Shown here piece by piece: positions 38,397-54,312 of a stretch of DNA of 64,000 bases. Within the stretch, counting starts at the first letter, position 1; every line of letters begins with the position of its first letter. Source of the DNA: a virus; the IMG/VR virus record IMGVR_UViG_3300008448_000064, positions 1 through 64,000 of that record. The stretch is one strand, 5' to 3'. Position numbers and translations under genes: made by a program. Under the pieces are notes generated by a model, which worked only from the letters and a program-made list of their open reading frames with translations, was not told the origin of the DNA and made no database searches.

Positions 38397-38613
38397 TGAA
38401 GTACTACAGTGGGCAGGCACTGCCTGCTTCATGGTTATGTATACAACTATGAGCTTCTTCAAAGAACTGCATACACTGCAATTAATTGCCGGATGCATGG
38501 GCGGAGCACTGTTTTTGGTGTGGTCGTTGCGTGTTGCAAATAAACAACAGACCATTGTTAACGTTACCGGAGTAACCATTACGCTCATAGGGTTATATAA
38601 AGCACTTGGTTGA
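38380..38613 (+). CDS. three-span membrane protein
   Basis: 77 residues from the ATG at 38380 (GGGAG upstream). Three hydrophobic segments: about 11-24, 33-50 and 58-74. Last gene of the 37776-38613 cassette; the next promoter overlaps its end. Confidence 0.75.
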   Translation: MRLPFNEVLQWAGTACFMVMYTTMSFFKELHTLQLIAGCMGGALFLVWSLRVANKQQTIVNVTGVTITLIGLYKALG

Positions 38614-38638
38614 CACCCTAGCCAAAAGGTCGTATAAT
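38610..38638 (+). promoter_or_regulatory. early promoter
   Basis: TTGACA, 17 bp with AGCCAAAAGG, TATAAT. The -35 lies between hairpin arms TAGGGT and ACCCTA. Confidence 0.85.
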
Positions 38639-38665
38639 ACATACATAGACAACAAAGGAGCTGAT

Positions 38666-38899
38666 ATGCGCGATTACACTGTGAAGCTGTTGGAAATGAT
38701 GGACGAGGGCTTGATCTCTGCAGAAGCTGTGGCAGAGATGGCTTTGGCCTACATGAGCGAAGATGACGTCAAAGACATGGTGCGAAGCAACGATCTTATG
38801 CCTTGGATGGAAAACGACGAAGAGGATGAAGACGAAGAGGAAGAGTGGACTCCGGACAATGCGGACTTCAACGATCCAGGTTCACGCCATCACTATTAA
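38666..38899 (+). CDS. conserved small acidic early protein
   Basis: 77 residues, start chosen after promoter and AAAGGAGC. L-L-E-M-M-D-E-G-L-I-S and Y-M-S-E-D-D-V-K-D-M, then an Asp/Glu-rich tail. Related proteins occur in many T4-type phages as far as I recall. Unknown function. Confidence 0.82.
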   Translation: MRDYTVKLLEMMDEGLISAEAVAEMALAYMSEDDVKDMVRSNDLMPWMENDEEDEDEEEEWTPDNADFNDPGSRHHY

Positions 38900-38908
38900 G
38901 GAGCGACT

Positions 38909-39190
38909 ATGAAACAAGACTACACACTGTATATCTACAAGGCAGACAAGCGGTGTAAGGCAGGTGAGCGCCTGTTCTCTACAACTGTTTGGACTGGCAC
39001 TGACGACAACGGTATGCGCCGAACTGTGGCAGAGCTGTTTGATCTCTATCCGCCCAGCAAGGGTTGGCGCTTTGATTGGACTCCCAGCATGAAGACTGTT
39101 CGCAACTTAATGTCGGGCAAAGAGATCCAGATCCCGCATGACACACCTCGTTCATGCGATCCTTCAAGCGAACTCTATTGGACCATGTGA
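38909..39190 (+). CDS. hypothetical early protein
   Basis: 93 residues with W-T-G-T-D-D-N-G-M-R-R-T-V-A and G-W-R-F-D-W-T-P-S. Its ribosome-binding site AAGGAGCGAC is one of the set complementary to the loop sequence at 48.9 kb. It overlaps the next start by one base (TGATG). Confidence 0.75.
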   Translation: MKQDYTLYIYKADKRCKAGERLFSTTVWTGTDDNGMRRTVAELFDLYPPSKGWRFDWTPSMKTVRNLMSGKEIQIPHDTPRSCDPSSELYWTM

Positions 39191-39354
39191 TGAAGAACGA
39201 GATTGAAAGATTGAACTTTGTCATCTGGGCTAAGGATCGTTTCCCGGGCTTTACTACAGATTCTAAGCAATACGCCAAAGCCAATCGGGCCTGGCGGGCT
39301 GTGGCTCGTAAAGACCCTATGGTTGACAAGGTTATCAAAACCTGCTATAATTAA
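39190..39354 (+). CDS. 54-residue basic early protein
   Basis: M-K-N-E-I-E-R-L-N-F-V-I-W-A-K-D-R-F-P-G-F. Basic and probably helical. The next promoter is embedded in its last ten codons. Unknown function. Confidence 0.75.
   Translation: MKNEIERLNFVIWAKDRFPGFTTDSKQYAKANRAWRAVARKDPMVDKVIKTCYN
39323..39351 (+). promoter_or_regulatory. early promoter inside a gene end
   Basis: TTGACA, 17 bp, TATAAT, within the 3' end of the 39190 gene. Confidence 0.8.
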
Positions 39355-39381
39355 GGCTTAAACAGTAACAAGGAGCGATAG

Positions 39382-39648
39382 ATGAAAGCACTACAAGAGT
39401 TCATTGCACAGAAGAATCACTGGAACAGCTTCTTCAACGGCGAGCAGTATGAGATTCGCACTGCCAAAGGTCGTCAGCGTGTCGCAGACATGATTGATGC
39501 GGCCCTTAGTCCTGAGAACTTGACCTGCGATGGGGAACTTCCTCGCGCAGAGGTCAATCGGAGATATAAGGAGCTGATGACTGCGGCCAAGCAGTTGAAG
39601 AAGCTGGACCCTGCCGTTACATTCTACGAATACGAAACGGAGATCTAA
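39382..39648 (+). CDS. hypothetical early protein
   Basis: 88 residues, start after AAGGAGCGAT. N-H-W-N-S-F-F-N-G-E-Q-Y-E-I-R, then R-R-Y-K-E-L-M-T-A-A-K-Q-L-K-K. Helical; looks like a conserved phage protein of unknown role. First of four genes in one cassette. Confidence 0.78.
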   Translation: MKALQEFIAQKNHWNSFFNGEQYEIRTAKGRQRVADMIDAALSPENLTCDGELPRAEVNRRYKELMTAAKQLKKLDPAVTFYEYETEI

Positions 39649-39649
39649 G

Positions 39650-39856
39650 ATGAAAGCCTATGTAACAACTATCCTCCGTCAGGAGTTGGAGGTGCCCGAA
39701 GGCACTACACGAGAAGAGATCTATGACTTCTTTGGCGAGTTCCAATCGTTTAGAACTGCGTTCCAAGGTGTTAGCGGCAATGGTATTACCATTGTTGACT
39801 TGATGGTCTTAGAGGAAGAAGTAACAGAACTTGGAGAGGAGAGCTTCGATGTCTAG
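39650..39856 (+). CDS. hypothetical early protein
   Basis: 68 residues, start one base after the previous stop. V-T-T-I-L-R-Q-E-L-E-V-P-E-G-T-T-R-E-E is a beta-hairpin-like start; acidic C-terminus. Overlaps the next gene by eight bases. Confidence 0.75.
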   Translation: MKAYVTTILRQELEVPEGTTREEIYDFFGEFQSFRTAFQGVSGNGITIVDLMVLEEEVTELGEESFDV

Positions 39857-39992
39857 ACAAGAGCTTGTTGATCTTGTCTTGGAGCAGATTGCTCAAGACG
39901 TAAAGAACGCAGACTTTACAGCTATTGAAGAGCTGTTACACTTTGTGCCAGAGTCTAACCTTAAATCATACTTGTCAGAAGGACCATACTAA
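39849..39992 (+). CDS. 47-residue conserved early protein
   Basis: M-S-R-Q-E-L-V-D-L-V-L-E-Q-I-A-Q-D-V and A-I-E-E-L-L-H-F-V-P-E-S-N-L-K-S-Y-L. Two helices; the same core is seen in other T4-type aquatic phages as far as I recall. Overlaps the previous gene by eight bases. Confidence 0.78.
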   Translation: MSRQELVDLVLEQIAQDVKNADFTAIEELLHFVPESNLKSYLSEGPY

Positions 39993-39993
39993 T

Positions 39994-40560
39994 ATGCCAA
40001 ACTGGTGTAACAACAGCGTAGAGATCTACCACGATGACCCTAAGATGATTGAGCGGGTGCGAACTGCGTTCAATGGTGAAGGCCTGCTACAAGAGTTCAT
40101 TCCTGTACCAGAAGACCTGCGTAATATCGTAGCAGGATCAGTTCCTGTTGCAGAAGAAGCAGAACACAAACTCAAAGAAGAGTTCAACCGTATCACATAT
40201 GGTTACACTAACTGGTATGACTTCTGTGTCAACGAGTGGGGCACTAAGTGGGAGATTGGTGCTGATGGTAACCCTGCACAGGACATCCCAGGCGGATTGC
40301 TATTGGGCTTTGAATCAGCTTGGGCTCCTCCTTGTGCAGCCTATGAGAAGCTGACAGCTATGGGTTTCCGTATTAAGGCTATGTATTTTGAGCCAGGTAT
40401 GGCATTTGCAGGCATTTGGGAAGACGGTTTCGATGACTACTACGAGTATGGTGGCATGGACTCTACTCAGATTGCCGAGGCGTTGCCTCCAGAGTTAGAC
40501 GAAGCATTTGGTATCTCAGAAGATGTAGCACAGTGGGAAGAAGAGAACAAGGAAGACTAA
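39994..40560 (+). CDS. Api92/YubB-like ferredoxin-fold phage protein
   Basis: 188 residues from the ATG at 39994. M-P-N-W-C-N-N-S-V-E-I at the start, F-I-P-V-P in the first third and W-Y-D-F-C-V-N-E-W-G-T-K-W in the middle are the signature of Api92-like / YubB ferredoxin-domain proteins found in phages and plasmids. The C-terminus is acidic. Function of the family is unknown. Last gene of its cassette, followed by a terminator. Confidence 0.88.
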   Translation: MPNWCNNSVEIYHDDPKMIERVRTAFNGEGLLQEFIPVPEDLRNIVAGSVPVAEEAEHKLKEEFNRITYGYTNWYDFCVNEWGTKWEIGADGNPAQDIPGGLLLGFESAWAPPCAAYEKLTAMGFRIKAMYFEPGMAFAGIWEDGFDDYYEYGGMDSTQIAEALPPELDEAFGISEDVAQWEEENKED

Positions 40561-40576
40561 TACTTTTTGCTTACAA

Positions 40577-40616
40577 AAACCCGCCGATTGTGCGGGTTTC
40601 TCATTTGTGCTATAAT
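40577..40616 (+). promoter_or_regulatory. overlapping terminator and early promoter
   Basis: Hairpin AAACCCGC-cgattgt-GCGGGTTT (40577-40599). TTGTGC begins in the loop and is followed 17 bp later by TATAAT (promoter 40588-40616). Confidence 0.75.
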
Positions 40617-40646
40617 ACATGCTTACACAACGCAATAGGAGCAAAC

Positions 40647-40994
40647 ATGCAAGCAGTCATTTTTAACACAGCAGGGGACGGCTACTGGAGCCGCACTGCA
40701 AAAGCAGTAGAGATAGTTGACATGCGGATGGGCTATGTTAGCGACGACAAAGAGTTTGGAGAGCTGTGCGTGTATTTTAACACAGCAGATTGGGACGTTA
40801 ATGTAGACGGTCTCATTTATACAGACAGTGAGTTTTTACACGAGCTGAACGCATTTTTAGTTGAGCAGGGCTTGTGTGCTGTAACATATAGCGAGCAGGG
40901 TATGCAGGGCGACAACTATGTGTCGCTAGACGTTGAAGACGAGTTTATTGCACTGTGGGAAGCTAAGTTTAACACAGTACTGGAGGCAATGTAA
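40647..40994 (+). CDS. hypothetical early protein
   Basis: 115 residues, start after AGGAGC. M-Q-A-V-I-F-N-T-A-G-D-G-Y-W-S-R and Y-F-N-T-A-D-W-D-V. Acidic alpha/beta protein of unknown role. Overlaps the next start (ATGTAATG). Confidence 0.78.
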   Translation: MQAVIFNTAGDGYWSRTAKAVEIVDMRMGYVSDDKEFGELCVYFNTADWDVNVDGLIYTDSEFLHELNAFLVEQGLCAVTYSEQGMQGDNYVSLDVEDEFIALWEAKFNTVLEAM

Positions 40995-41230
40995 TGATTA
41001 CAGCAGACAAGCTAGCCCTACTGACTAACATGCCTGCGGTGATGTTGACAACAGGCATACAGGCTGCAGGCTACAAGAAGGACAAGTTCACAAAGAGCAA
41101 GTTCCTGGGCATAACCAATGCCGGCCTGTTCTGCTACACTGCTACCTACATTGAAGACAATGCAGAGCAGGAGTGCAAAGTCTTTGTCAAGTATGACCCT
41201 ACAGCGGATAGGGTTTCGGTTGACTACTGA
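40994..41230 (+). CDS. hypothetical early protein
   Basis: 78 residues, with L-T-N-M-P-A-V-M-L-T-T-G-I-Q-A-A-G-Y and a beta-rich C-terminus. The next promoter begins within its last codons. Unknown function. Confidence 0.75.
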   Translation: MITADKLALLTNMPAVMLTTGIQAAGYKKDKFTKSKFLGITNAGLFCYTATYIEDNAEQECKVFVKYDPTADRVSVDY

Positions 41231-41248
41231 GCCAAAAGGCCTTATAAT
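41220..41248 (+). promoter_or_regulatory. early promoter
   Basis: TTGACT, 17 bp with GAGCCAAAAGGCC, TATAAT, after hairpin ACCCTA ... TAGGGT. Confidence 0.85.
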
Positions 41249-41281
41249 ACATACATCGACAACGCAATTAGGAGCGAAACT

Positions 41282-41551
41282 ATGCTAACAACTAAACAAG
41301 TCCGTGCTATTATCGCACAACATTCCACCAGCACCTACGGAGTGTACACAAACAAAACTAAATCCGACGCTTCAAATATTCGTCGTGTCAAGTGTTATTT
41401 CCGGGGTAATACTAAACTGCTAATCGCACTGCAAAAAGCAGCCGGCAAACAAAACGTTACACTTACAGAAGGTGGAGACAGTTACTACAGCGGCGGGCCG
41501 GGCATTATTGTTAAGTGCGTTTTAGAAGACGCTACAACTGCTCCTTTTTAA
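41282..41551 (+). CDS. hypothetical early protein
   Basis: 89 residues, basic, AGGAGCGAAA before the ATG. S-T-Y-G-V-Y-T-N-K-T-K and a Gly-rich S-Y-Y-S-G-G-P-G. It might bind nucleic acid, but no family is clear. Confidence 0.75.
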   Translation: MLTTKQVRAIIAQHSTSTYGVYTNKTKSDASNIRRVKCYFRGNTKLLIALQKAAGKQNVTLTEGGDSYYSGGPGIIVKCVLEDATTAPF

Positions 41552-41562
41552 TAACCCTTCGG

Positions 41563-41591
41563 TTGACAGGGTTACCAAAAGACGCTATAAT
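41563..41591 (+). promoter_or_regulatory. early promoter in terminator loop
   Basis: TTGACA, 17 bp with ACCAAAAGACG, TATAAT; TTGAC is in the loop of AACCCT ... AGGGTT. Confidence 0.88.
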
Positions 41592-41622
41592 ACATACATC
41601 AACAACGCACTAAGGAGCAAAG

Positions 41623-41889
41623 ATGAGCAACTATCCTAACATGAGTTACTGCATGAACGAGAACACACTGCTGGCGCTGAAGCAGGTGCTGGACGCTATG
41701 CAAGAGGAAGGCCCGCAGTTCCTGCGTGAGCTGTCGCGTGATGAGCGCCGTAGCTTTGAGGCACTGTTTAACATGTGCGAAGACTTTATGTCGCTGAGCG
41801 AGGAACTGCAAGCAGAGTACGAGCAAGAAGAGCGTGATGGCCAGCCCGACGAAGCGCAAGAGTGGGCAGACTTTGATCCGGAGTGCTAA
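41623..41889 (+). CDS. acidic helical early protein
   Basis: 88 residues. L-L-A-L-K-Q-V-L-D-A-M and F-L-R-E-L-S-R-D-E-R-R-S-F-E-A-L; strongly acidic C-terminus. Single-gene cassette. Unknown function; a DNA-mimic role is possible for such acidic early proteins but is only a guess. Confidence 0.75.
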   Translation: MSNYPNMSYCMNENTLLALKQVLDAMQEEGPQFLRELSRDERRSFEALFNMCEDFMSLSEELQAEYEQEERDGQPDEAQEWADFDPEC

Positions 41890-41900
41890 AGGGTTTTTGG

Positions 41901-41929
41901 TTGACGCATTAGCCAAAATGCGTTATAAT
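41901..41929 (+). promoter_or_regulatory. early promoter in hairpin loop
   Basis: TTGACG, 17 bp with AGCCAAAATGCG, TATAAT; between arms GCTAA and TTAGC. Confidence 0.85.
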
Positions 41930-41954
41930 TAACACTTAACAACAAAGGAACAAA

Positions 41955-42140
41955 ATGAATAACGTGTACATTGTACAAGGTCTGGGCTTCGGAGACTACG
42001 AGAACTGTTTTTACAACTTGCAAGCATTTGCTACTAAAGCAGCCGCACTGAGCCACATTGCTGTTTTGCAAGCAGAGGACGAATCTAACGACAGCGGCCC
42101 GCAAGAGTACACTGTAGAGGAAGTGTTATTCACCCTGTAA
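41955..42140 (+). CDS. hypothetical early protein
   Basis: 61 residues, AAAGGAAC upstream. V-Q-G-L-G-F-G-D-Y-E-N-C-F-Y-N and an acidic C-terminus. A terminator (ACCCT ... AGGGT plus CTTT) follows at about 42132. Unknown function. Confidence 0.72.
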   Translation: MNNVYIVQGLGFGDYENCFYNLQAFATKAAALSHIAVLQAEDESNDSGPQEYTVEEVLFTL

Positions 42141-42156
42141 GCTGTAGGGTCTTTGG

Positions 42157-42185
42157 TTGACATAAGCGCCAAAAGGCCTTATAAT
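42157..42185 (+). promoter_or_regulatory. early promoter
   Basis: TTGACA, 17 bp with GCGCCAAAAGGCC, TATAAT. Confidence 0.88.
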
Positions 42186-42216
42186 ACATACATACTGAAA
42201 CACAAAGGAGCTTGAA

Positions 42217-42642
42217 ATGGGAACACGAAGCACTATCGCACTTGAATTTGCAGACGGCACAGTAGAGCAAGTCTACTGTCACTGGGACGGTTACTTGAGC
42301 AACAATGGACAGATCCTTGCTCGTTACTACATGGACCCGTTCAAAGTCAAAGAACTGCTGGCGCTGGGAGCGTTCTCTAGCTTAGAGGATACTGTTGAGG
42401 GAACTAAGACAGGCGCTTATCATCACTGGCGCGGTGAAGAGATTGTAATCAACAAATACAAGAACGCAGACGAATACTTTGACTGCTCACAGCAAGAAGA
42501 GTACGACTACATCCTGCGCAATGTCAACGGCAAAGCCGTTTGGTTCGTTCGTTATTACGAGTCAGAGAACACTTGGATGCCGTTGGAAGAGGCGTTTATC
42601 GACGAGCAAGATCGTATTGCACAAGAGGAGACAGAAGAATGA
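42217..42642 (+). CDS. conserved phage protein (M-G-T-R-S-T family)
   Basis: 141 residues. M-G-T-R-S-T-I-A-L-E-F-A-D-G-T and Y-C-H-W-D-G-Y-L form the signature of a protein family widespread in phages. Function unknown. AAAGGAGC ribosome-binding site; ATGA overlap with the next gene. Confidence 0.85.
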   Translation: MGTRSTIALEFADGTVEQVYCHWDGYLSNNGQILARYYMDPFKVKELLALGAFSSLEDTVEGTKTGAYHHWRGEEIVINKYKNADEYFDCSQQEEYDYILRNVNGKAVWFVRYYESENTWMPLEEAFIDEQDRIAQEETEE

Positions 42643-42824
42643 GCGCGATTAAAGATTTGAGTTATGATATCCAAGAGATGTTCATTGACGGTGCGGATGC
42701 TACACATATCGCATTCATGTTGAAGGTTCCGTTGGATGAAGTTCAGAAGGTGTTGAATAGCTTTGGGGTTAGTGACGAGGATATTGTTGCAGACGAACCT
42801 TATAGTCCCTACAACGGAGCATAA
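42639..42824 (+). CDS. small HTH-like early protein
   Basis: 61 residues. A-D-A-T-H-I-A-F-M-L-K-V-P-L-D-E-V-Q-K-V looks like a helix-turn-helix of the kind that reads A-x-x-I-A-x-x-L-x-V. Could be a DNA-binding regulator. Coupled to the previous gene by ATGA. Confidence 0.75.
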   Translation: MSAIKDLSYDIQEMFIDGADATHIAFMLKVPLDEVQKVLNSFGVSDEDIVADEPYSPYNGA

Positions 42825-42834
42825 ACCCTACAGG

Positions 42835-42863
42835 TTGACGGGTTTCTCCTTTGGTGTTATAAT
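42835..42863 (+). promoter_or_regulatory. early promoter in terminator loop
   Basis: TTGACG, 17 bp, TATAAT; TTGAC lies in the loop of AAACCC ... GGGTTT. Confidence 0.85.
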
Positions 42864-42887
42864 TGATACATGAAAAGGAGAAAAGCA

Positions 42888-43010
42888 ATGCAACTGACAA
42901 TACCCGTGCGTCGCCCAGTGTGTCGCACTCCTATTAAACCCAAACAGGCGCACAAGATAGCAACTCGTTATCAACGCAAGCCAAAGCATAAAGGACGCAC
43001 ACATGATTGA
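42888..43010 (+). CDS. 40-residue very basic protein
   Basis: ATG at 42888 after AAAAGGAGAAAAG. M-Q-L-T-I-P-V-R-R-P-V-C-R-T and Q-R-K-P-K-H-K-G-R. Strong positive charge suggests nucleic-acid binding. Overlaps the next start by eight bases. Confidence 0.65.
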   Translation: MQLTIPVRRPVCRTPIKPKQAHKIATRYQRKPKHKGRTHD

Positions 43011-43242
43011 GATTACAATCGAAGGACTGAATGCACGTCAACGTGCCCTGGCTGACATCATCTGGGCATGTGACAATCAAAAGCAGGTCAACGAGTTTAT
43101 TCGCAGCCTGCCTACGATTCGACTGCAAGACGAAGCAAAGACCATCGTAAGCCTTATGATTATGGCAACTGTAGAACAATGCTACGATGGCATAGGCGAT
43201 ATGCCCGAAGCACAACAACTGATCGATAAGGTCCTAAAATGA
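43003..43242 (+). CDS. conserved small phage protein
   Basis: 79 residues: I-E-G-L-N-A-R-Q-R-A-L-A-D-I-I-W-A-C and F-I-R-S-L-P-T, then a long helix. I recall the same core in many aquatic phages. Unknown function. Confidence 0.82.
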   Translation: MIEITIEGLNARQRALADIIWACDNQKQVNEFIRSLPTIRLQDEAKTIVSLMIMATVEQCYDGIGDMPEAQQLIDKVLK

Positions 43243-43364
43243 AATCAACTATCTATTACAGCAAACGAAACTTCACTACAGATACTCTGCCCGAAGTTAC
43301 TAAGAGCAAACTGGTCTATGACTTTATTGCACTCTTAGCCGTTATGAAGGTTTGGGCACGGTGA
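43239..43364 (+). CDS. 41-residue basic protein
   Basis: Starts at the ATGA overlap (43239): M-K-S-T-I-Y-Y-S-K-R-N-F. One mildly hydrophobic helix F-I-A-L-L-A-V-M. Its TGA overlaps a GTG start of the next gene. Confidence 0.6.
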   Translation: MKSTIYYSKRNFTTDTLPEVTKSKLVYDFIALLAVMKVWAR

Positions 43365-43618
43365 GCCGCCTTGCAATGTACGGCAGGCCCTATGTGATCT
43401 TTAATCCTGCTAATCAAGATCATAGGAAATGGTTTGCCAACTTTAATAAGACAGGTGCATGGGGTTCGTGTCCAGTTCGATTCGTAGTCAACGACGATCA
43501 CGGCGATTTGATCACTATGATCCAGCGCGAATTGATCCAATATTACGTGGACAAAGAGTTCTCTAAACCCAGTACTGTTGCAAAAAAACAACGGCAAAAA
43601 AGCCTAGTTTTTGGTTGA
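43361..43618 (+). CDS. hypothetical early protein
   Basis: 85 residues from GTG at 43361 (GTGA overlap). R-P-Y-V-I-F-N-P-A-N-Q-D-H-R-K-W and F-V-V-N-D-D-H-G-D-L. Its stop codon lies in the -35 of the next promoter. Unknown function. Confidence 0.72.
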   Translation: MSRLAMYGRPYVIFNPANQDHRKWFANFNKTGAWGSCPVRFVVNDDHGDLITMIQRELIQYYVDKEFSKPSTVAKKQRQKSLVFG

Positions 43619-43643
43619 CACTGGCGCCAAAAGGCGTTATAAT
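43615..43643 (+). promoter_or_regulatory. early promoter
   Basis: TTGACA, 17 bp with GCGCCAAAAGGCG, TATAAT. Confidence 0.88.
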
Positions 43644-43675
43644 TGATACATCAACAACGCACTAAGGAGCACTAA

Positions 43676-44026
43676 ATGACAGCAGTAGCATTTGACGTAG
43701 AGGCAGTTCAGAACGCAACTAACGAAGCCGCAATGGCCGCTCGTACCGCAGTGAAACAAGCCTATGCCGCACTAGGTGGCGATCGTGGCCCTTGTGGCTT
43801 TGCTTGGGTTAACGTTTGGGGCGTCCGCTCTAACAGCAAGCTCGGCAACGCACTCAAGGCCGCAGGCTTCCGCAAGGACTACACGGGTGCATTGAGTCTG
43901 TGGAATCCAGGCAAAGCGGCTGCTCAAAGCATTGACATTCTGGAAGCAGGTGCCTATGCTTACGCAGAGGTTTTGAAAGAGAAGTTGGGTTTGGAGAAGG
44001 TCTACGCAGGTTCGCGTATGGATTGA
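43676..44026 (+). CDS. conserved phage protein
   Basis: 116 residues, Ala-rich. G-P-C-G-F-A-W-V-N-V-W-G-V-R-S-N-S-K and L-S-L-W-N-P are a motif set seen in several large phages as far as I recall. Function unknown. AAGGAGC upstream. Confidence 0.8.
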   Translation: MTAVAFDVEAVQNATNEAAMAARTAVKQAYAALGGDRGPCGFAWVNVWGVRSNSKLGNALKAAGFRKDYTGALSLWNPGKAAAQSIDILEAGAYAYAEVLKEKLGLEKVYAGSRMD

Positions 44027-44041
44027 TTTTGCCAAAAGGGG

Positions 44042-44070
44042 TTGACCGCAACCCCGATTGGTGTTACAAT
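44042..44070 (+). promoter_or_regulatory. early promoter in hairpin
   Basis: TTGACC, 17 bp, TACAAT; overlaps hairpin GGGGTT-gaccgc-AACCCC. Confidence 0.75.
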
Positions 44071-44132
44071 AGAAACATGTCCAAAAGGACATAAGGCAAT
44101 TAACTTAAATTAACTTGAAAAGGCAAAATAAA

Positions 44133-44507
44133 ATGGCAACAGATAAACTGTTTACGGTAGTTGGTACTTCTAAGCTCAATGGTGAGATGAAGGTTCGCTT
44201 TGCGAACGATGTGATGCGTGTTAAGGTGCTGGCAAAGCACGGACACACTGACATTAACCTTATTGAGTTGGATACTCCAATGACCAAGCTTGAGGCTGTA
44301 AAAGTTCTCAAGACTGCGGACGAGTTCCAAGGCGCCGCAGAGCAAAGCGCAATCGCTGACTATCTCGATCGCAAGGACGAGACACCCGCCAAAGCTACAA
44401 AGGCTGTGGCACCTGCTAAGACTGCAACGGTCAAGGCTCCCAAAGTCAAAGCTGCTATCAAAGCATCTAAGATTGACACTAGCGAGATGGAAGACGCTCC
44501 ATTCTAA
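44133..44507 (+). CDS. early protein, paralogue of the 37776 gene with Lys/Ala-rich tail
   Basis: 124 residues. G-T-S-K-L-N-G-E-M-K-V-R-F-A-N-D-V and V-K-V-L-A-K-H-G-H-T-D-I-N-L-I-E-L match the 37776 gene. After about residue 80 it adds an Ala/Lys/Pro-rich linker and the acidic end E-M-E-D-A-P-F, like the C-termini of SSB proteins that bind partners. Start at 44133 (M-A-T-D-K). Unknown function; nucleic-acid binding is possible. Confidence 0.78.
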   Translation: MATDKLFTVVGTSKLNGEMKVRFANDVMRVKVLAKHGHTDINLIELDTPMTKLEAVKVLKTADEFQGAAEQSAIADYLDRKDETPAKATKAVAPAKTATVKAPKVKAAIKASKIDTSEMEDAPF

Positions 44508-44533
44508 TCTACAGCACCGTATCGCTGAGCATC

Positions 44534-44540
44534 ATAAATA
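44534..44540 (+). promoter_or_regulatory. late promoter element ATAAATA
   Basis: ATAAATA six bases before the ATG at 44547. Confidence 0.5.
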
Positions 44541-44546
44541 CACTCT

Positions 44547-44741
44547 ATGCGATACGGTGTTTCCCAATCAAACGATTATCAACAAGTTGGCGCAGTGGTC
44601 ATCAGAGACTTCCTTAGTGAACCTAAGGGCCGAGTCCTTTGCGTGATCGCTCGCGACAACCTCTACGAAGCAGAGCAGACAGCACAATACCTCTGCGATT
44701 TATTAAACAAAGAAGAAAAACATGCCCTGGGTTCAGTATGA
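44547..44741 (+). CDS. hypothetical protein, late-type start
   Basis: 64 residues: M-R-Y-G-V-S-Q-S-N-D-Y and A-E-Q-T-A-Q-Y-L-C-D-L-L-N-K. No ribosome-binding site, with ATAAATA six bases upstream. Overlaps the next gene by 20 bases. Confidence 0.7.
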   Translation: MRYGVSQSNDYQQVGAVVIRDFLSEPKGRVLCVIARDNLYEAEQTAQYLCDLLNKEEKHALGSV

Positions 44742-44922
44742 AGTTTGGAGTGTCGACGAACTTGGACACGAAGAAATCATTGACACAACTAACAGTCTAA
44801 AAGAAGCAAATCAATTGGCGGATGTAACGCTAAATGATGTTGACAACGGCATTGTAGAGTGTATAATATACAAAGAGACAGAAGGCGAGCTTGAAGAAGT
44901 CGCTGTGGTAGTTAGGGATTGA
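44722..44922 (+). CDS. hypothetical protein before the tRNA genes
   Basis: 66 residues: M-P-W-V-Q-Y-E-V-W-S-V-D-E-L-G-H-E-E and L-K-E-A-N-Q-L-A. Strongly acidic. It ends five bases before tRNA-Leu. Unknown function. Confidence 0.72.
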   Translation: MPWVQYEVWSVDELGHEEIIDTTNSLKEANQLADVTLNDVDNGIVECIIYKETEGELEEVAVVVRD

Positions 44923-44927
44923 TCAAT

Positions 44928-45012
44928 GCTCGGATGGTGAAATAGGTAGACACAAGAGACTTAAAATCTCTCGCTGAAAGGCGTGCCGGTTCGATTCCGG
45001 CTCCGAGCACCA
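44928..45012 (+). tRNA. tRNA-Leu (anticodon TAA)
   Basis: Acceptor stem GCTCGGA/TCCGAGC, anticodon stem AGAGA/TCTCT with loop CTTAAAA, a long variable arm typical of Leu, T-loop GGTTCGATTCC, and an encoded CCA end. Cloverleaf complete. Confidence 0.96.
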
Positions 45013-45013
45013 A

Positions 45014-45055
45014 GAATACCAAAGTAAATTTACAGGGAATACCAAAGTAAATTTA
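45014..45055 (+). repeat. 19-bp direct repeat between tRNA genes
   Basis: GAATACCAAAGTAAATTTA occurs exactly at 45014-45032 and 45037-45055, separated by four bases, between tRNA-Leu and tRNA-Arg. Confidence 0.95.
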
Positions 45056-45056
45056 T

Positions 45057-45133
45057 CTGACTGTAGCTCAACTGGATAGAGCAACAGCCTTCTAAGCTGT
45101 AGGTCGGGGGTTCGAGTCCCTCCAGTCAGGCCA
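45057..45133 (+). tRNA. tRNA-Arg (anticodon TCT)
   Basis: Acceptor stem CTGACTG/CAGTCAG, anticodon stem ACAGC/GCTGT with loop CTTCTAA, T-arm GGGGG/CCCTC with TTCGAGT loop, encoded CCA. Confidence 0.96.
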
Positions 45134-45138
45134 GTTTA

Positions 45139-45216
45139 GGGCCTCTAGCTCATGTTGGTTAGAGCAGTGGACTCATAATCCATTGGTGCGGAGTTCGACT
45201 CTCCGGGGGCCCACCA
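45139..45216 (+). tRNA. tRNA-Ile2 or tRNA-Met (anticodon CAT)
   Basis: Acceptor stem GGGCCTC/GGGGCCC, anticodon stem GTGGA/TCCAT with loop CTCATAA, T-arm CGGAG/CTCCG, encoded CCA. The GACTCATAATC context is like bacterial tRNA-Ile2, where C34 is changed to lysidine; initiator features are absent. Elongator Met is the alternative. Confidence 0.93.
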
Positions 45217-45236
45217 TTCATCTAAAGGAGCACATT

Positions 45237-45410
45237 ATGGCAGGCAAAGCGAAATCAATATACCTTACAATCTTGCCCAAAGGCAAGCATATGAGCGTTT
45301 TTAAGAAGGTATTCTTCGAAGCCAAATCCTATAACGAATACGTCAAGACCGACGAATTCAAAGCCAAATGGCCCAAAGAAGAGTTCGACATTGTAAAAGA
45401 AACCTATTAA
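45237..45410 (+). CDS. small basic protein after the tRNA genes
   Basis: 57 residues from the ATG at 45237 (AAAGGAGC). Lys-rich: M-A-G-K-A-K-S-I-Y-L-T-I-L-P-K-G-K. No own promoter; probably co-transcribed with the tRNAs. Unknown function. Confidence 0.75.
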   Translation: MAGKAKSIYLTILPKGKHMSVFKKVFFEAKSYNEYVKTDEFKAKWPKEEFDIVKETY

Positions 45411-45418
45411 CCCTTTGG

Positions 45419-45447
45419 TTGACAGGGTCTTTGTTTGGTGCTATAAT
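45419..45447 (+). promoter_or_regulatory. early promoter in terminator loop
   Basis: TTGACA, 17 bp, TATAAT; TTGAC in the loop of ACCCT ... AGGGT, followed by CTTTGTTT. Confidence 0.88.
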
Positions 45448-45474
45448 ACATACATAGACAAGCAAGGAGCTGAT

Positions 45475-45690
45475 ATGGGATACAAGGTTGTAGCAGATCG
45501 AGAGCAGATGGACATGATGCGTGTCAAATACGGTCCACGCAAGGGCTTAGAAGGCCCCTTCAACTTCTCCGGCAGAGTGTTGTATTATGACAACAAAGAG
45601 GGTCAGTACTACGATCCTACTACAGACTTCTACGTAGAGGAAGACGAAATGTCCATGATCCGTGAAGGGTTTTTGACACAGTTCGCTTGA
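45475..45690 (+). CDS. hypothetical early protein
   Basis: 71 residues after AAGGAGC: M-G-Y-K-V-V-A-D-R-E-Q-M and V-L-Y-Y-D-N-K-E-G-Q-Y-Y-D-P. Tyr-rich and acidic. Unknown function. Confidence 0.75.
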   Translation: MGYKVVADREQMDMMRVKYGPRKGLEGPFNFSGRVLYYDNKEGQYYDPTTDFYVEEDEMSMIREGFLTQFA

Positions 45691-45715
45691 CAGCCTGACT
45701 GTTTGGCGTTATAAT
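45687..45715 (+). promoter_or_regulatory. early promoter
   Basis: TTGACA, 17 bp, TATAAT; starts in the stop codon of the 45475 gene. Confidence 0.85.
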
Positions 45716-45747
45716 AGATACATAGACAGCAACAAGGAGCGAACCAA

Positions 45748-46041
45748 ATGGCTAAACTATTGATCCAAACCCAAGTGTACGAGAACTACGGTACGGCTGA
45801 TGAGCCTTACTGGAAACCCAAAGGCGGTGCAGACTACGTGGTCAAGAAGTTCAAAGACTTCAACAAGGTCACTGAAACTGTGATGGCCCTGCGCTCACAG
45901 ATCGAGCAGGACAACGAATACTACCGCGAGCACATCATCAACTTCGAAGTTGTGGCCAACGACTACATGACAGACTTTGAGAAGGATCAGTGGGAATACG
46001 AAGGCAAAATCACTTATCCCGCAAAGGAGTTGGCATGGTAA
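45748..46041 (+). CDS. conserved early protein
   Basis: 97 residues after AAGGAGCGAA. M-A-K-L-L-I-Q-T-Q-V-Y-E-N-Y-G and Y-W-K-P-K-G-G-A-D-Y resemble a widespread phage family. Unknown function. Overlaps the next start. Confidence 0.8.
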   Translation: MAKLLIQTQVYENYGTADEPYWKPKGGADYVVKKFKDFNKVTETVMALRSQIEQDNEYYREHIINFEVVANDYMTDFEKDQWEYEGKITYPAKELAW

Positions 46042-46130
46042 TCAATCAAGCAATCATCAATCTGCTGATCGTGCTGGCGCCGATCTGGATCATGGGAATA
46101 GCCCTACTGGTTGACTGGTTATTCAATTGA
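46035..46130 (+). CDS. 31-residue membrane peptide
   Basis: ATG at 46035 after AAAGGAG. M-V-I-N-Q-A-I-I-N-L-L-I-V-L-A-P-I-W-I-M-G: a single hydrophobic helix. The next promoter is embedded in its end. Too short to place in a family. Confidence 0.6.
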   Translation: MVINQAIINLLIVLAPIWIMGIALLVDWLFN

Positions 46131-46139
46131 GTATATAAT
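46111..46139 (+). promoter_or_regulatory. early promoter
   Basis: TTGACT, 17 bp, TATAAT. Confidence 0.8.
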
Positions 46140-46166
46140 ACATACATAGACAAGCAAGGAGCGAAG

Positions 46167-46388
46167 ATGATTAGAGAGCACATTGAGATGGATACACGAC
46201 ATGGTGGTCCATACGATCGCGGTACAGCCGACAGCTACTACCGCAGAAGCTATAACCCTCACTATTACAAGGGCGACACTGGTAACTCACCTCGTGTAAC
46301 GCTCAAAGACATGACACCCGACGAGATCGTGGCCTACACCGCAGGCTATCGCGACAACGAAGATGAAGGCAACTTCAAAGAGTATTAA
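46167..46388 (+). CDS. conserved phage protein (H-G-G-P-Y-D-R-G family)
   Basis: 73 residues after AAGGAGCGAA. H-G-G-P-Y-D-R-G-T-A-D-S-Y-Y-R-R and Y-N-P-H-Y-Y-K-G are the signature of a small protein family found in many phages. Function unknown. Confidence 0.85.
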   Translation: MIREHIEMDTRHGGPYDRGTADSYYRRSYNPHYYKGDTGNSPRVTLKDMTPDEIVAYTAGYRDNEDEGNFKEY

Positions 46389-46399
46389 TAACCCTTTGG

Positions 46400-46428
46400 T
46401 TGACAGGGTTACCAAAAGACGTTATAAT
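46400..46428 (+). promoter_or_regulatory. early promoter in terminator loop
   Basis: TTGACA, 17 bp with ACCAAAAGACG, TATAAT; TTGAC in the loop of AACCCT ... AGGGTT. Confidence 0.88.
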
Positions 46429-46453
46429 TAACACATAGCAACAAGGAACTAAG

Positions 46454-46687
46454 ATGAACAAATATCAGAAACAAGCATTGGTAGATATGGGCAAGGTCGC
46501 CCTGGCAGTTGTAGCAGGTATTGCCGCAATTAACGCCGTGATCATGCTGGGCATGTCAGCAGGTGATGTAGCCGGCGCGATCAGTTTGGTGGCCATGGGT
46601 TACTGTGTCTATCAACTCTACTTGATCCGTGTGGGTCAGCTGGAGAGCCAGGATCGTTTGAACGACATTGAGAAGAAGTACAAATAA
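46454..46687 (+). CDS. two-span membrane protein
   Basis: 77 residues. Hydrophobic segments at about 11-31 and 35-53, then a charged helix with L-N-D-I-E-K-K-Y-K. AAGGAAC upstream. Unknown function. Confidence 0.75.
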   Translation: MNKYQKQALVDMGKVALAVVAGIAAINAVIMLGMSAGDVAGAISLVAMGYCVYQLYLIRVGQLESQDRLNDIEKKYK

Positions 46688-46696
46688 CCCTAGTGG

Positions 46697-46725
46697 TTGA
46701 CAGGTTATCGTTTTGGCAGTATAAT
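46697..46725 (+). promoter_or_regulatory. early promoter
   Basis: TTGACA, 17 bp, TATAAT; hairpin arms AACC and GGTT around the -35. Confidence 0.85.
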
Positions 46726-46758
46726 ACATACATATTAACACAAAAGGGAGCGACCCAA

Positions 46759-47142
46759 ATGGCTAAAGTAAATTATGACAAGTTTGCCTCGTTTGACATT
46801 AACGAGTGCTGTGATCACTTTGACAGTGAGAAGCAGAGCAACTGGAAGAAGATTGGCAAGTTCATCGTAGCAGATGGACAGGACTATGCCCATATTATGG
46901 AAACAGAGTTTGACTTTGAAGATGTAGGCAATGGCGAGTATGCGGCCTTTGAGGCAGGTGTTAAGTATGCACTGACCAAGATGAACATTGCTTTTGAAGC
47001 GGCTGCTGTAGACTTGCAGATCTGCGAGGTAGACTTGGTAGAGAGCATGGGCTTTATGATGGTACGTTGCGATGACGAGCCAGAGGACTTTGTCAAGCGG
47101 GTTATGAAGAAGCCTGTTATGATGGTAGACAGCTGGTGCTAA
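46759..47142 (+). CDS. hypothetical acidic early protein
   Basis: 127 residues from the ATG at 46759 after GGGAGCGA. F-D-I-N-E-C-C-D-H-F-D-S-E-K and F-M-M-V-R-C-D-D-E-P-E-D-F. Unknown function. Confidence 0.77.
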   Translation: MAKVNYDKFASFDINECCDHFDSEKQSNWKKIGKFIVADGQDYAHIMETEFDFEDVGNGEYAAFEAGVKYALTKMNIAFEAAAVDLQICEVDLVESMGFMMVRCDDEPEDFVKRVMKKPVMMVDSWC

Positions 47143-47202
47143 CAGTTTGCCAATGTGTCAGCCTATCACTAGACCCTGCAACACGCCCGGGCACTTCGTA
47201 GG

Positions 47203-47231
47203 TTGACACAAAGGCTTTTTGACAGTATAAT
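47203..47231 (+). promoter_or_regulatory. early promoter
   Basis: TTGACA, 17 bp, TATAAT. The transcript has an unusually long leader of about 120 nt. Confidence 0.85.
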
Positions 47232-47237
47232 AGAGAC

Positions 47238-47360
47238 ATAGTAAGAAGCAAGGCGATCCTCAAATGTAAGAACCCAGCAGAGATGCAAAAAGGGTTGTAA
47301 CCAAGGGATACGAAGCGAGTTTGGAGACTCGGCCTAAGCCAACATGCACAGGAGCGAACC
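47238..47360 (+). ncRNA. structured leader RNA, type unknown
   Basis: Non-coding 5' region with possible stems AACCC/GGGTT (47271/47290), CGAGT-ttggag-ACTCG and GGC-ctaa-GCC close to the ribosome-binding site AGGAGCGAAC. No known riboswitch class was recognised. It could be a cis-regulator or a separate small RNA. Confidence 0.35.
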
Positions 47361-47555
47361 ATGCAAGTACACTTTATCAACACAGGAACCAAAGAAGACT
47401 TTGGCTTTAGAGAAGTCAACGTAGAAGCCTTCAAGTTGGATCACGACAATGCTCCTTATTGCATCGTTAGCAATCCATTTTTCCCGGGCGAAAGTCTACG
47501 TGCAGAGTACAACTTCTATAACGATTGCCTGCAATGGGTGGTTGACATAGATTGA
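47361..47555 (+). CDS. hypothetical early protein
   Basis: 64 residues: M-Q-V-H-F-I-N-T-G-T-K-E-D-F-G-F and P-F-F-P-G-E-S-L-R-A-E-Y-N. AGGAGCGAA ribosome-binding site. The next promoter lies in its last codons. Unknown function. Confidence 0.75.
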   Translation: MQVHFINTGTKEDFGFREVNVEAFKLDHDNAPYCIVSNPFFPGESLRAEYNFYNDCLQWVVDID

Positions 47556-47570
47556 TTTTGACAGTATAAT
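47542..47570 (+). promoter_or_regulatory. early promoter
   Basis: TTGACA, 17 bp, TATAAT. Confidence 0.85.
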
Positions 47571-47602
47571 AGACACATCAACAACGCAAATAGGAGCGAA
47601 CT

Positions 47603-47881
47603 ATGAACGTACAGCAGATCAATACAGCCCTGGTAACAGGTTCTTTCACCAACGATCAACTGGCAAGTGTGATCGATGCAGTCAAGTTTGCTCGTAGCCG
47701 TTTGGCACAGACTACAAAGAGCACTCTGCGAGTAGGCGACAATGTCAACTTTACCTCTAGCAAAACCGGACAGAACATGACAGGTTTTGTTACAAAGATT
47801 GCCATTAAATATGTAACAGTCAAAACAATGAACGGCTTGTGGCGTGTGCCAGCTAACATGCTGAACAAGGTTGAAGCCTAA
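47603..47881 (+). CDS. conserved early protein with KOW/SH3-like C-terminus
   Basis: 92 residues. An N-terminal helix pair (I-N-T-A-L-V-T-G, L-A-S-V-I-D-A-V-K-F-A) leads to a beta-barrel-like segment L-R-V-G-D-N-V-N-F-T-S ... M-T-G-F-V-T-K-I-A-I-K, similar to a KOW fold. I recall this in other aquatic phages. AGGAGCGAA upstream. Confidence 0.78.
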   Translation: MNVQQINTALVTGSFTNDQLASVIDAVKFARSRLAQTTKSTLRVGDNVNFTSSKTGQNMTGFVTKIAIKYVTVKTMNGLWRVPANMLNKVEA

Positions 47882-47899
47882 TTACAGAACTAATAGAGC

Positions 47900-47928
47900 T
47901 TGACAACAGGCTCTATTGATGCTATAAT
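47900..47928 (+). promoter_or_regulatory. early promoter in terminator loop
   Basis: TTGACA, 17 bp, TATAAT; -35 in the loop of AATAGAGC ... GCTCTATT. Confidence 0.88.
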
Positions 47929-47958
47929 TACTTTTTTAAACAACATTGGAGCGAAACA

Positions 47959-48816
47959 ATGCCAGGATATCGTGTAGTAAAATTGGACGAGCAGAGCAAC
48001 AAGACTATCCCTCAGCGTAGTACTGTAGAGCCTATTAGCAAAGAATCAGATGCAGAGATCATGGAGCGTATGCGTGAACGCTTTGAGATCCTTGACGACA
48101 TGACCCGTGCGGTTAAAAAGGGTGCAGTACGTGCTATGATTGTAAGCGGTGCACCGGGTGTGGGCAAGAGCTTTGGTGTTGAGAAAGTACTGAGCAAGCA
48201 TCAACTCCTCGCAGACGTAGCCAACGATCAAAAGCTCAAGAAGTTTGAGATTGTCAAAGGCGCTATGTCAGCTATTGGACTGTACAAGAAGCTGTACGAG
48301 TACAGTGACTCTAAGTGTATCCTTGTGTTCGATGACTGCGATTCAGTACTGTTGGACGACATTGCACTCAACATCCTTAAGGCTGCATTGGATACAAGCA
48401 AGAAGCGTACCATCAGCTGGAACACAGACAGCCGTAGTTTGATTGCAGAAGGTGTGCCCAATAGCTTTGAGTACAAGGGCGGTGCTATCTTTATTACTAA
48501 TATTAACTTCCAGAACATCAAGAGCAAGAAGCTTCAGGATCACTTGGCAGCATTGGAAAGCCGTTGCCACTACATTGATCTTACGATCCATACAGAGCGT
48601 GACAAGATGTTGCGTATCCGACAGATCGTAGCTGATGGCATGCTGGCAGAGTACGAGTTCACAACAGAGCAACAAGCAGAGCTGGTAGAGTTTGTAGATG
48701 CTAACAAGAAGCGCCTGCGTGAACTGAGCTTGCGTACAGTACTTAAGACTGCTGACTTGATCAAGAGCTTCCCAGCTAAATGGCAACGTGTAGCAGAGGT
48801 TAGCCTTATGCGCTAA
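47959..48816 (+). CDS. AAA+ ATPase, last early gene
   Basis: 285 residues. Walker A G-A-P-G-V-G-K-S (64-71), Walker B I-L-V-F-D-D-C-D (121-128), sensor region I-F-I-T-N-I-N-F. The C-terminal lid is helical with L-R-E-L-S-L-R-T-V. Similar small AAA+ proteins occur in aquatic T4-type phages. GGAGCGAAA ribosome-binding site. The 3' region carries four hairpins. Function unknown. Confidence 0.85.
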   Translation: MPGYRVVKLDEQSNKTIPQRSTVEPISKESDAEIMERMRERFEILDDMTRAVKKGAVRAMIVSGAPGVGKSFGVEKVLSKHQLLADVANDQKLKKFEIVKGAMSAIGLYKKLYEYSDSKCILVFDDCDSVLLDDIALNILKAALDTSKKRTISWNTDSRSLIAEGVPNSFEYKGGAIFITNINFQNIKSKKLQDHLAALESRCHYIDLTIHTERDKMLRIRQIVADGMLAEYEFTTEQQAELVEFVDANKKRLRELSLRTVLKTADLIKSFPAKWQRVAEVSLMR

Positions 48817-49000
48817 TGCATACAGCTAGCAGGGCAGCTTGAGCCCTGCACACTGTACTAGAGCACAGCATACACAAAGCTCTAGACAGTGCAGTTAGAT
48901 CCAGTTCGATTCGCTCCCGACAGTGATCTAACAGGGACTGCTGTGAAGCAGACCTTTGAACCCCATGATCCGATTCGCTCCCGGTCATGGGGTTTCTTTT
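48817..49000 (+). ncRNA. four-hairpin 3' region with two identical loops complementary to early ribosome-binding sites
   Basis: Hairpins: GCAGGGC/GCCCTGC (48829-48849); CACTGT-a-CTAGAGC/GCTCTAG-ACAGTG (48851-48891); GTTAGATC/GATCTAAC (48894-48932); AACCCCATGA/TCATGGGGTT (48959-48994) followed by TTCTTTTC, a strong terminator. The last two carry the same 13-mer CGATTCGCTCCCG (48907-48919 and 48971-48983), with loop ATTCGCTCC closed by C-G pairs. The loop is complementary to GGAGCGAA. Possible 3'-derived regulatory RNA. Confidence 0.45.
48959..49000 (+). terminator. Rho-independent terminator of the early region
   Basis: 10-bp perfect stem AACCCCATGA/TCATGGGGTT followed by TTCTTTTC; last rightward terminator. 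Confidence 0.85.
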
Positions 49001-49007
49001 CATCGAT

Positions 49008-49057
49008 GAGGTCAGGGGGTCGGGGCGACCATCGGGGTGAGGTGAGGGGGTCGGGGC
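49008..49057 (+). repeat. G-rich direct repeat, quadruplex-like
   Basis: GAGGTCAGGGGGTCGGGGC (49008-49026) and GAGGTGAGGGGGTCGGGGC (49039-49057), 18 of 19 identical, with another GGGG between. Five G-runs of four or more bases in 50 bp. Confidence 0.85.
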
Positions 49058-49120
49058 TTAATAATGATATTTGTAATACTAAATTATTACGGCTTAGTGG
49101 TGCTAAATCACCAGGCAGAA

Positions 49121-49300
49121 TCTGTAAGTACTTCTCTTATATTTTTTGCGCGGCAGATTTTTAACCCTGCAGGACCCATTTCAGGGAAGAGACTCGCAGG
49201 CGATTCTTTACTGTAAAACTACCTTGAAGAAACTCTAAGTACTTCCCTAAAAATTTTTGCGCTAAATTTTTTTTTGGTCTGCAGACCCCATTTGGGCTCA
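49121..49300. repeat. diverged tandem repeat in the strand-switch gap
   Basis: Two copies (about 49121-49186 and 49232-49300) share TAAGTACTTC, TTTTTGCGC, CTGCAG and GACCC(C)ATTT in the same order. They lie between the rightward early block and the leftward 49298 gene. No gene is seen in 48817-49297. Confidence 0.65.
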
Positions 49301-52842: not shown

Positions 52843-54312
52843 TTATGTAAACACTTTAACACCGTAATGGCTCTCAAAGTTTCGAGCATCCGAAACATCA
52901 TTAACCATGGGCTTGCCCTTGATATTTAGGCTAGTGTTCAACAATATAGGACAACCCGATGCTGCATACCATTGTTCTAACAACTGTCTTATTCTACTGC
53001 CGTCTGCCGGTACAGTCTGTACACGACTAGTGTTGTCCCTATGCACGATAGCAGGAAATAACTGAGGATGAATACAACGACTGATGAACTGCATATGCCT
53101 ATTGTCACTGCTAGCACCAGGGAGATCAAAGTATTGATCAGCCAACTCCTCCAAAACCATTGGCGCAAAAGGTCTGAATTCTTGTCTACGTTTGATTGCA
53201 TTTACTGTGTCCTTAATATCAGGTCCTCGGGGATCTGCTAGTAAACTACGATTGCCCAGGGCACGAGGACCAAATTCTGCGCGGCCTTGAGCAACTCCGC
53301 ACATCTTATCTTTGAGCAAATGTTCTAAAATTGCTTCAGTTGATTGAGTTGGTTCTATATTGTAACCTAGGCTACAAGTTTCCCAGCCGATGTGTTCTTT
53401 GTTTCTTGCTAGAACTGCACCTATAGCTGAACCTGCATCTCCGGGATTAGGCATAATCCAAACGTTTTTAAAGTATTTGTAAGCAATAGGGTTAGCTAGG
53501 CAATTAAGAGCACAGCCTCCCATTAGCACTAGATTATCACTAGGAACAAAACTTTTTGCTGACTGTAATATCTTTTCAAACTGTGTTTCGTAGATAGCCT
53601 GAGTAGCTGCTGCAATATCAAACGTGTCATTAACAGTAAGATCAGGCGCCCAATCTAAGCAACCGCGGTGTAGATTCTTTTTAAAACTAACTAAAGTTTC
53701 TCCATCTTTTTCAAAGAAATCTTCCAGTATTCTGTTGTACAGTCGTTTAGGATTTCCGTAAGCAGCCATACCCATAAGAATGTATTCTTCTTCGTTAGGT
53801 TTTAAATTGCATCTTTGTGTCATTGCTGAATACCAAAGACCTAGGCTATCCGGATATGTTTGCTTATATACTTGCTTTAGTCCTTTTTCACCGCCATGCC
53901 ACATTGTTAGAGTTTCAAACTCACCAATTGCATCTATGACTACTACCGCAGCTTCTTTGAACGGGCCTGTATAAAAACCTGCGGCTGCATGACTTTCATG
54001 ATGCCATTGAGTATAGATAGGAGCACTAATACCATAATTGTTCAAATATCGTTTGATATTATTGCTTTTATGATTTAGACCTTGTCCAGCAGTAAATTGC
54101 CTTAGAGTTTTTGCCCAAGGCTTTTCATACCATACAACTTCTTTAGGATAGCCGTAATGGCTGGCAGCATACTGAACTAGACTGTCGCAAAGATCTGCAT
54201 CGTTCTTTTTTCCGCTGAATCGCTCACTGTGACTAGCGAACAATAACTTGTTGTCATCAAATACAGCCAATGCTGCATCATGACTATTTGCTGATATTCC
54301 CCAGGTAATCAT
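52843..54312 (-). CDS. NodU/CmcH-type carbamoyltransferase
   Basis: 489 residues in two domains. The N-terminal Kae1/ASKHA-like domain has W-G-I-S-A-N-S-H-D-A-A and H-H-E-S-H-A-A-A-G (104-112), the His motif that binds metal and carbamoyl-adenylate. The C-terminal domain has G-R-A-E-F-G-P-R-A-L-G-N-R-S and R-P-F-A-P-M-V. It would transfer a carbamoyl group to a hydroxyl of a sugar or nucleotide. T4-type cyanophages carry similar genes. Its place between gp41 and primase suggests DNA or envelope modification, undecided. Confidence 0.92.
   Translation of the reverse strand: MITWGISANSHDAALAVFDDNKLLFASHSERFSGKKNDADLCDSLVQYAASHYGYPKEVVWYEKPWAKTLRQFTAGQGLNHKSNNIKRYLNNYGISAPIYTQWHHESHAAAGFYTGPFKEAAVVVIDAIGEFETLTMWHGGEKGLKQVYKQTYPDSLGLWYSAMTQRCNLKPNEEEYILMGMAAYGNPKRLYNRILEDFFEKDGETLVSFKKNLHRGCLDWAPDLTVNDTFDIAAATQAIYETQFEKILQSAKSFVPSDNLVLMGGCALNCLANPIAYKYFKNVWIMPNPGDAGSAIGAVLARNKEHIGWETCSLGYNIEPTQSTEAILEHLLKDKMCGVAQGRAEFGPRALGNRSLLADPRGPDIKDTVNAIKRRQEFRPFAPMVLEELADQYFDLPGASSDNRHMQFISRCIHPQLFPAIVHRDNTSRVQTVPADGSRIRQLLEQWYAASGCPILLNTSLNIKGKPMVNDVSDARNFESHYGVKVFT

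Follow-up and report, generated by a model that had tools for sequence, protein, structure and literature searches.

Organization of the early-arm locus

The window, that is, the whole stretch of 64,000 nt analysed here, is part of a 69-kb virus fragment and probably represents a piece of a T4-like myovirus, because the record encodes rIIA, rIIB, a DnaB-type helicase, a primase and a DNA helicase. Auxiliary genes are present as well, encoding a phosphate-transporter subunit-like protein and a Nol-like carbamoyltransferase (34184-35188 and 52843-54312). The early arm carries 13 perfect TTGACA-N16/17-TATAAT promoters on the plus strand (38610-47928), many more than chance would give, and the majority immediately precede an early gene. 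Because most early genes have a strong promoter of their own, the predicted targets described below should largely be separate transcripts with short leaders, and any common effect on them would need to act in trans. The last early gene (47959-48816, plus strand; in the following called the carrier gene) encodes an AAA+ ATPase (phrog_1250, NrdC.10-like) and follows a perfect sigma-70-type promoter (TTGACA-17-TATAAT; 47900-47928, plus strand).

The 3'UTR of the carrier gene is highly structured. The minimum free energy (MFE) of positions 48817-49000 is -76.3 kcal/mol, compared with -49.8 ± 4.1 kcal/mol for shuffled sequences (z = -6.5). A previous sequence-only reading of this DNA had counted four hairpins after the last early gene; hairpins are present there, but the MFE fold gives five, because a small hairpin (48933-48956) lies between the two hairpins with the loops of interest. 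All five are on the plus strand. The first (48829-48849) and second (48851-48891) lack an anti-RBS loop, that is, a loop complementary to ribosome-binding sites (RBSs). Next comes the first anti-RBS hairpin (48894-48932), which relatives keep with covarying stems and which displays the 9-nt loop ATTCGCTCC at 48909-48917. The last hairpin (48958-48995) displays the same loop at 48973-48981 and forms the intrinsic terminator, with a T-rich tail reaching to about 49000. Both loops are unpaired in the MFE fold, each on a closed stem, and the 13-mer CGATTCGCTCCCG that had been noticed in both hairpins occurs just twice in the window, at 48907 and 48971. As in known 3'UTR-derived sRNAs, the terminator is shared with the mRNA and no strong separate promoter is apparent: the terminator hairpin lies behind the AAA+ gene, and the best promoter-like plus-strand site inside the carrier gene reaches only 9/12.

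Beyond the terminator (49020-49300) follows a G-rich stretch with GGTCGGGG repeats and then a TGGTG/CACCA hairpin region with TAAGTACTTC motifs, possibly an origin or a late promoter region. Relatives have such a region at the same position, and under a loose test 9 of the 71 type A loci showed a similar pattern.

Complementary ribosome-binding sites in the early arm

The sequence-only reading had named nine early-arm genes whose RBSs match the loops. GGAGCGA indeed lies closely upstream of all nine and is extended to exactly GGAGCGAA in six. On the plus strand, the shorter form precedes the genes at 38909 (38900-38906), 39382 (39372-39378) and 46759 (46747-46753). The full GGAGCGAA precedes those at 41282 (41271-41278), 45748 (45736-45743), 46167 (46158-46165), 47361 (47351-47358) and 47603 (47593-47600), as well as the carrier gene itself (47948-47955), which makes the latter a possible self-target. 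The only clear match beyond the early arm, also anticipated, is GGAGCGAA at 1895-1902 on the minus strand, before the tail fibre gene at 1893. Altogether, GGAGCGA accounts for 9 of the 34 plus-strand GGAG RBS calls (P of about 2e-9 under a random choice of the three positions that follow GGAG). The predicted pairing between RBS and loop amounts to about -13 kcal/mol, compared with -6 to -8 kcal/mol for the RBS with the standard 16S anti-Shine-Dalgarno (anti-SD) sequence and about -5 to -6 kcal/mol with the wrong loop type (see below).

Distribution of the element among viral contigs

We scanned IMG/VR viral contigs for two copies of GATTCGCTCCC spaced 14-44 or 45-75 bases apart, with the RBS not being part of the pattern. 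The scans yielded 49 and 104 stretches, respectively, and 146 viral loci were analysed, many of them on partial or near-duplicate contigs (partly removed) and with open reading frames and RBSs called by simple rules. In these loci, exact GGAGCGAA made up 393 of 1413 GGAG RBSs on the same strand (28%) vs 15 of 288 on the opposite strand. As a control, the shorter-spacing pattern was searched in cellular genomes totalling 257 billion bases, which gave 44 repeat-like loci, none of them with a same-strand GGAGCGAA RBS. These matches could serve as a control because they are REP-like or coding repeats lacking matching same-strand RBSs. Among them were REP-like repeats with GATTCGCTCCCACA in Thalassolituus, Oleibacter and Oceanospirillaceae (L322, L327, L336, L353, L354, L357) and in Natronospirales loci (e.g., L318, L328, L340, L350), which are unrelated to the phage element.

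The gene upstream of the element is the AAA+ ATPase gene of the window in 126 of 136 readable loci, the window included, and a 91-aa winged-HTH-like gene in 7 of 136. All carriers are metagenome contigs, of sizes up to 400 kb, and come from T4-like and giant phages that form a large group. Rfam covariance models returned nothing at the gathering score for the element of the window and only tRNAs for three relatives.

Covarying stems around a constant loop

The sequence-only reading had proposed looking for covariation in related phages, and the stems do covary. In the 36 first hairpins that could be aligned without gaps, all 288 of 288 pair cells are standard pairs, including 77 double changes, and the covariation score is 0.736 vs 0.19 when shuffled and ≤0.16 when slid. 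Exchanging arms between elements costs about 6 kcal/mol in the first hairpin and 9 kcal/mol in the last, as well as 9 kcal/mol in the sister clade described below. The loop is constant in these scan-derived sets, in part owing to selection by the exact motif. Relatives picked by the AAA+ protein alone have the same loop, with the minor variants AATCGCTCC and ACTCGCTCC. Of the motif copies, 75% and 68% fall within hairpin loops, vs 9-11% for control windows; copies near the stop codon are often outside hairpin loops.

RBS usage with and without the element

Larger element-plus loci have 2-12 GGAGCGAA RBSs each, and none of the RBSs of the element-free loci L017-L036, with up to 25 GGAG RBSs per locus, is GGAGCGAA. 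All these phages, whether or not they have the element, frequently use GGAGC in their RBSs; in element-free relatives the form is GGAGCA, and GGAGCGAA hardly ever occurs. In some carriers (e.g., L223, L238) GGAGCG is followed by other bases, leaving a match of 6-7 bases. Counted per whole record, element-plus records have as many as 18 copies of GGAGCGAA-ATG, mostly clustered beside the element, and six element-free relatives have none (backward control 0-1). An exception is the element-plus record G011, which has the element at its very end and no GGAGCGAA-ATG. The carrier gene's own RBS, where it is of the GGAG type, reads GGAGCG in 110 of 115 element-plus vs 0 of 32 element-free cases. Alternative NNNNCTCC loops in the element-free L017-L039 were neither repeated nor matched to RBSs, and no matching terminator loop was found downstream.

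Joint change of loop and RBS in a sister clade

In the phylogeny of the AAA+ relatives, clade B (SH-aLRT 100) is nested in a clade A+B supported at 98. At the same position as in clade A, the clade B loci display the loop (T)GCCCTC on 2-5 hairpins, of which the final one is again the terminator in many loci, and their early RBSs read GAGGGC(A). Among loci selected by the protein, clade A (71 loci, 1023 genes) has GGAGCGA in 28.4% and GAGGGC in 0% of genes, with 137 and 1 of the respective UTR motifs; for clade B (33 loci, 502 genes) the values are 0.4% and 40%, with 0 and 93 UTR motifs. Loci belonging to neither group (69 loci, 882 genes) have 2.3% and 1.5%. The code is present in only 28-40% of early genes.

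Exceptions in the neither group include L519, L528, L539 and six related loci, in which the loop hairpin is found some 0.8 kb further downstream (0.4 kb for L446) and, where readable, behind the HTH gene. L490 has both GCCCTC and GCCCTT loops, and L535 is an incomplete locus. Two sub-variants appear, by their sequences, to obey the same matching rule: L506 combines GAGGGCT RBSs with AGCCCTC in the UTR, and L483 combines AAGGGCA RBSs with a TGCCCTT loop.

The sequence-only reading had named relatives with a changed RBS sequence as the place where pairing could fail. The sister lineage changed both partners, judged by comparison of the loci: GGAGCGAA with TTCGCTCC is replaced by GAGGGCA with TGCCCTC. 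Because the AAA+ tree implies a single origin of the A+B element and places the code switch on a single branch, the independent evolutionary events are few.

A candidate RNA regulator of early translation

Loop hairpins, stem covariation, the match to RBSs and the fact that loop and RBS changed together are apparent from sequence comparison, and together they strongly support a predicted pairing between the 3'UTR RNA and early RBSs, in agreement with the proposal that this RNA addresses many phage RBSs. We consider it likely, at a probability of about three in four, that the 3'UTR of the AAA+ gene works as a regulatory RNA and that its redundant loops occlude early RBSs, that of its own gene included. 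Two redundant loops here, and one to five in relatives, would complement an extended RBS common to many early genes, GGAGCGAA in the window and GAGGGC(A) in the sister clade. Once this transcript accumulates, either as a free RNA or after processing of the mRNA, the loops would pair with these RBSs, including the one of the carrier gene, and keep them from the 30S ribosome, so that early translation would be shut off in a self-limited manner. Repression by pairing, the time of action and the cutting of the RNA from its mRNA are what we infer. The two roles suggested earlier as alternatives, shut-off of the early set and control of the own mRNA, may both be true, because the carrier's own RBS nearly always matches and several other early genes per locus match as well.

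Four other explanations were weighed against occlusion. The best surviving one, although unlikely, accepts the pairing and assigns it a different effect: the RNA might protect or activate early mRNAs, it might join mRNA ends, or the early mRNAs might act as a sponge for the 3'UTR RNA. Either sign of the effect would be compatible with the results here; however, the SD core itself lies within the paired stretch, and known RNAs of such architecture act as repressors.

Less probable again is a phage DNA-binding protein that reads GGAGCGAA/TTCGCTCC as double-stranded DNA after early promoters and, reversed, at the early terminator, RNA complementarity being a by-product and the specificity of the protein having changed in the sister clade. 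RBS and loop sites are reverse complements and hence one site in DNA, they are located some 20 bases downstream of the -10 box, and an altered protein could shift all sites together. Yet the 3'UTR motif lies in hairpin loops far above the control windows, on stems that covary, and always in anti-RBS orientation relative to the early genes. Moreover, the RBS copy keeps its distance to the start codon more tightly (standard deviations 1.2 and 1.7) than that to the -10 box (2.5 and 6.2), as is typical of an SD sequence.

We regard as slightly more improbable still that the loops act only in cis, pairing with the RBS on the mRNA to which they belong, so that the AAA+ gene alone is tuned. The frequent match of the carrier's own RBS mentioned above fits this explanation, but several other early genes per locus, mostly with own promoters, share the RBS and were switched with the loops in the sister clade, and in nine loci the loop hairpin lies behind a different gene. 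Finally, we give hardly any credence to ordinary terminators and ordinary SD sequences matching by chance or through duplicated promoter-leader cassettes: GGAGC is common throughout these phages and neighbouring early genes have similar leaders, but the GGAGCA usage of element-free relatives argues against it and the joint switch in the sister clade leaves it no room.

Relation to known regulators

That C-rich anti-SD loops are known from bacterial small RNAs, as the sequence-only reading had stated, is borne out by two systems. In rhizobia, the alpha-r14 family (NfeR1) and the related "cuckoo" RNAs present an identical anti-SD motif unpaired in several hairpins with differing stems; the motifs are functionally redundant, and many mRNAs are silenced at the initiation region (PMC10746234). 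Similarly, the phage 3'UTR has an identical anti-RBS motif unpaired in at least two hairpins with dissimilar stems, complementary to the RBSs of several mRNAs; by analogy, it may repress these targets through redundant motifs. In contrast, alpha-r14/NfeR1 is bacterial and standalone, and its motif CCUCCUCCC targets general SDs, whereas the phage element is a 3'UTR with an extended, phage-specific RBS complement, includes the terminator and has co-switched loop and RBS between clades. With a loop reading AUUCGCUCC or (U)GCCCUC, it does not belong to the alpha-r14/cuckoo family proper. Staphylococcus aureus RNAIII uses the C-rich loops of hairpins 7 and 13 against several targets; by occupying the RBS of coa mRNA, hairpin 13 prevents translation from initiating (PMC2837412). 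RNAIII differs in being a 514-nt bacterial quorum-sensing effector whose targets have no shared RBS code.

The phage T4 protein RegB cleaves SDs of the GGAG type, that of its own mRNA among them (PMC3014915). The presumed task of the phage RNA would resemble early shut-off by RegB and RegA, in which many early mRNAs are inactivated or repressed at their initiation regions with self-control, the T4 regulators being proteins, unlike the RNA element. RegA (PF01818) was found in none of 20 records of this group (14 with and 6 without the element; some may be fragments), with the Straboviridae controls S13 and Acj9 positive; its absence is common to element-plus and element-free relatives and does not separate them. 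The controls of the RegB search gave no match.

In line with the earlier statement that no description was known for this phage type, we found none of a phage anti-RBS RNA of this kind in the open-licence literature, only analogues. By analogy, the architecture is already known from alpha-r14/NfeR1 and the mode of action from RNAIII; as far as we found, there is no description yet of the phage context, of an extended RBS specific to a lineage or of co-switching between loop and RBS. We lean slightly towards a broader interpretation as a regulon-wide, switchable translation code, in which a lineage-specific early RBS and complementary 3'UTR loops effect shut-off by RNA instead of RegA/RegB-type proteins, and which changed as a whole on one or more occasions (from GGAGCGAA to GAGGGCA or in the opposite direction). 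If this is true, a widespread group of large phages runs its early programme with an RNA that mimics the ribosome's anti-SD and is fitted to phage messages. It would provide a natural RBS/anti-RBS pair with specificity switched as a unit over many genes, an RNA counterpart of the T4 early shut-off proteins and an explanation for the conserved terminator, and it yields testable predictions derived from sequence alone.

Additional elements and repeats

Among named phages, the nearest homologues of the AAA+ protein are PA5oct-like (45-49%), but PA5oct was rejected as a carrier, with its next gene starting within 44 bases. A second element with the same loop in one to three copies lies behind the small winged-HTH-like gene in L003 (5030-5120), L006 (5690-5750), L013 (5820-5880), L016 (2790-2850) and L519 (6940-6970). 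It had no DNA match in named phages, and no such loop follows the homologue of this gene in the window (11589-11861, minus strand, 72% identical). In L366 (617-3295), we observed a tandem array of about eleven small genes spaced 200 bases apart, with CAGTGAG near the stop/start at each joint, which looks like a series of repeated small paralogues.
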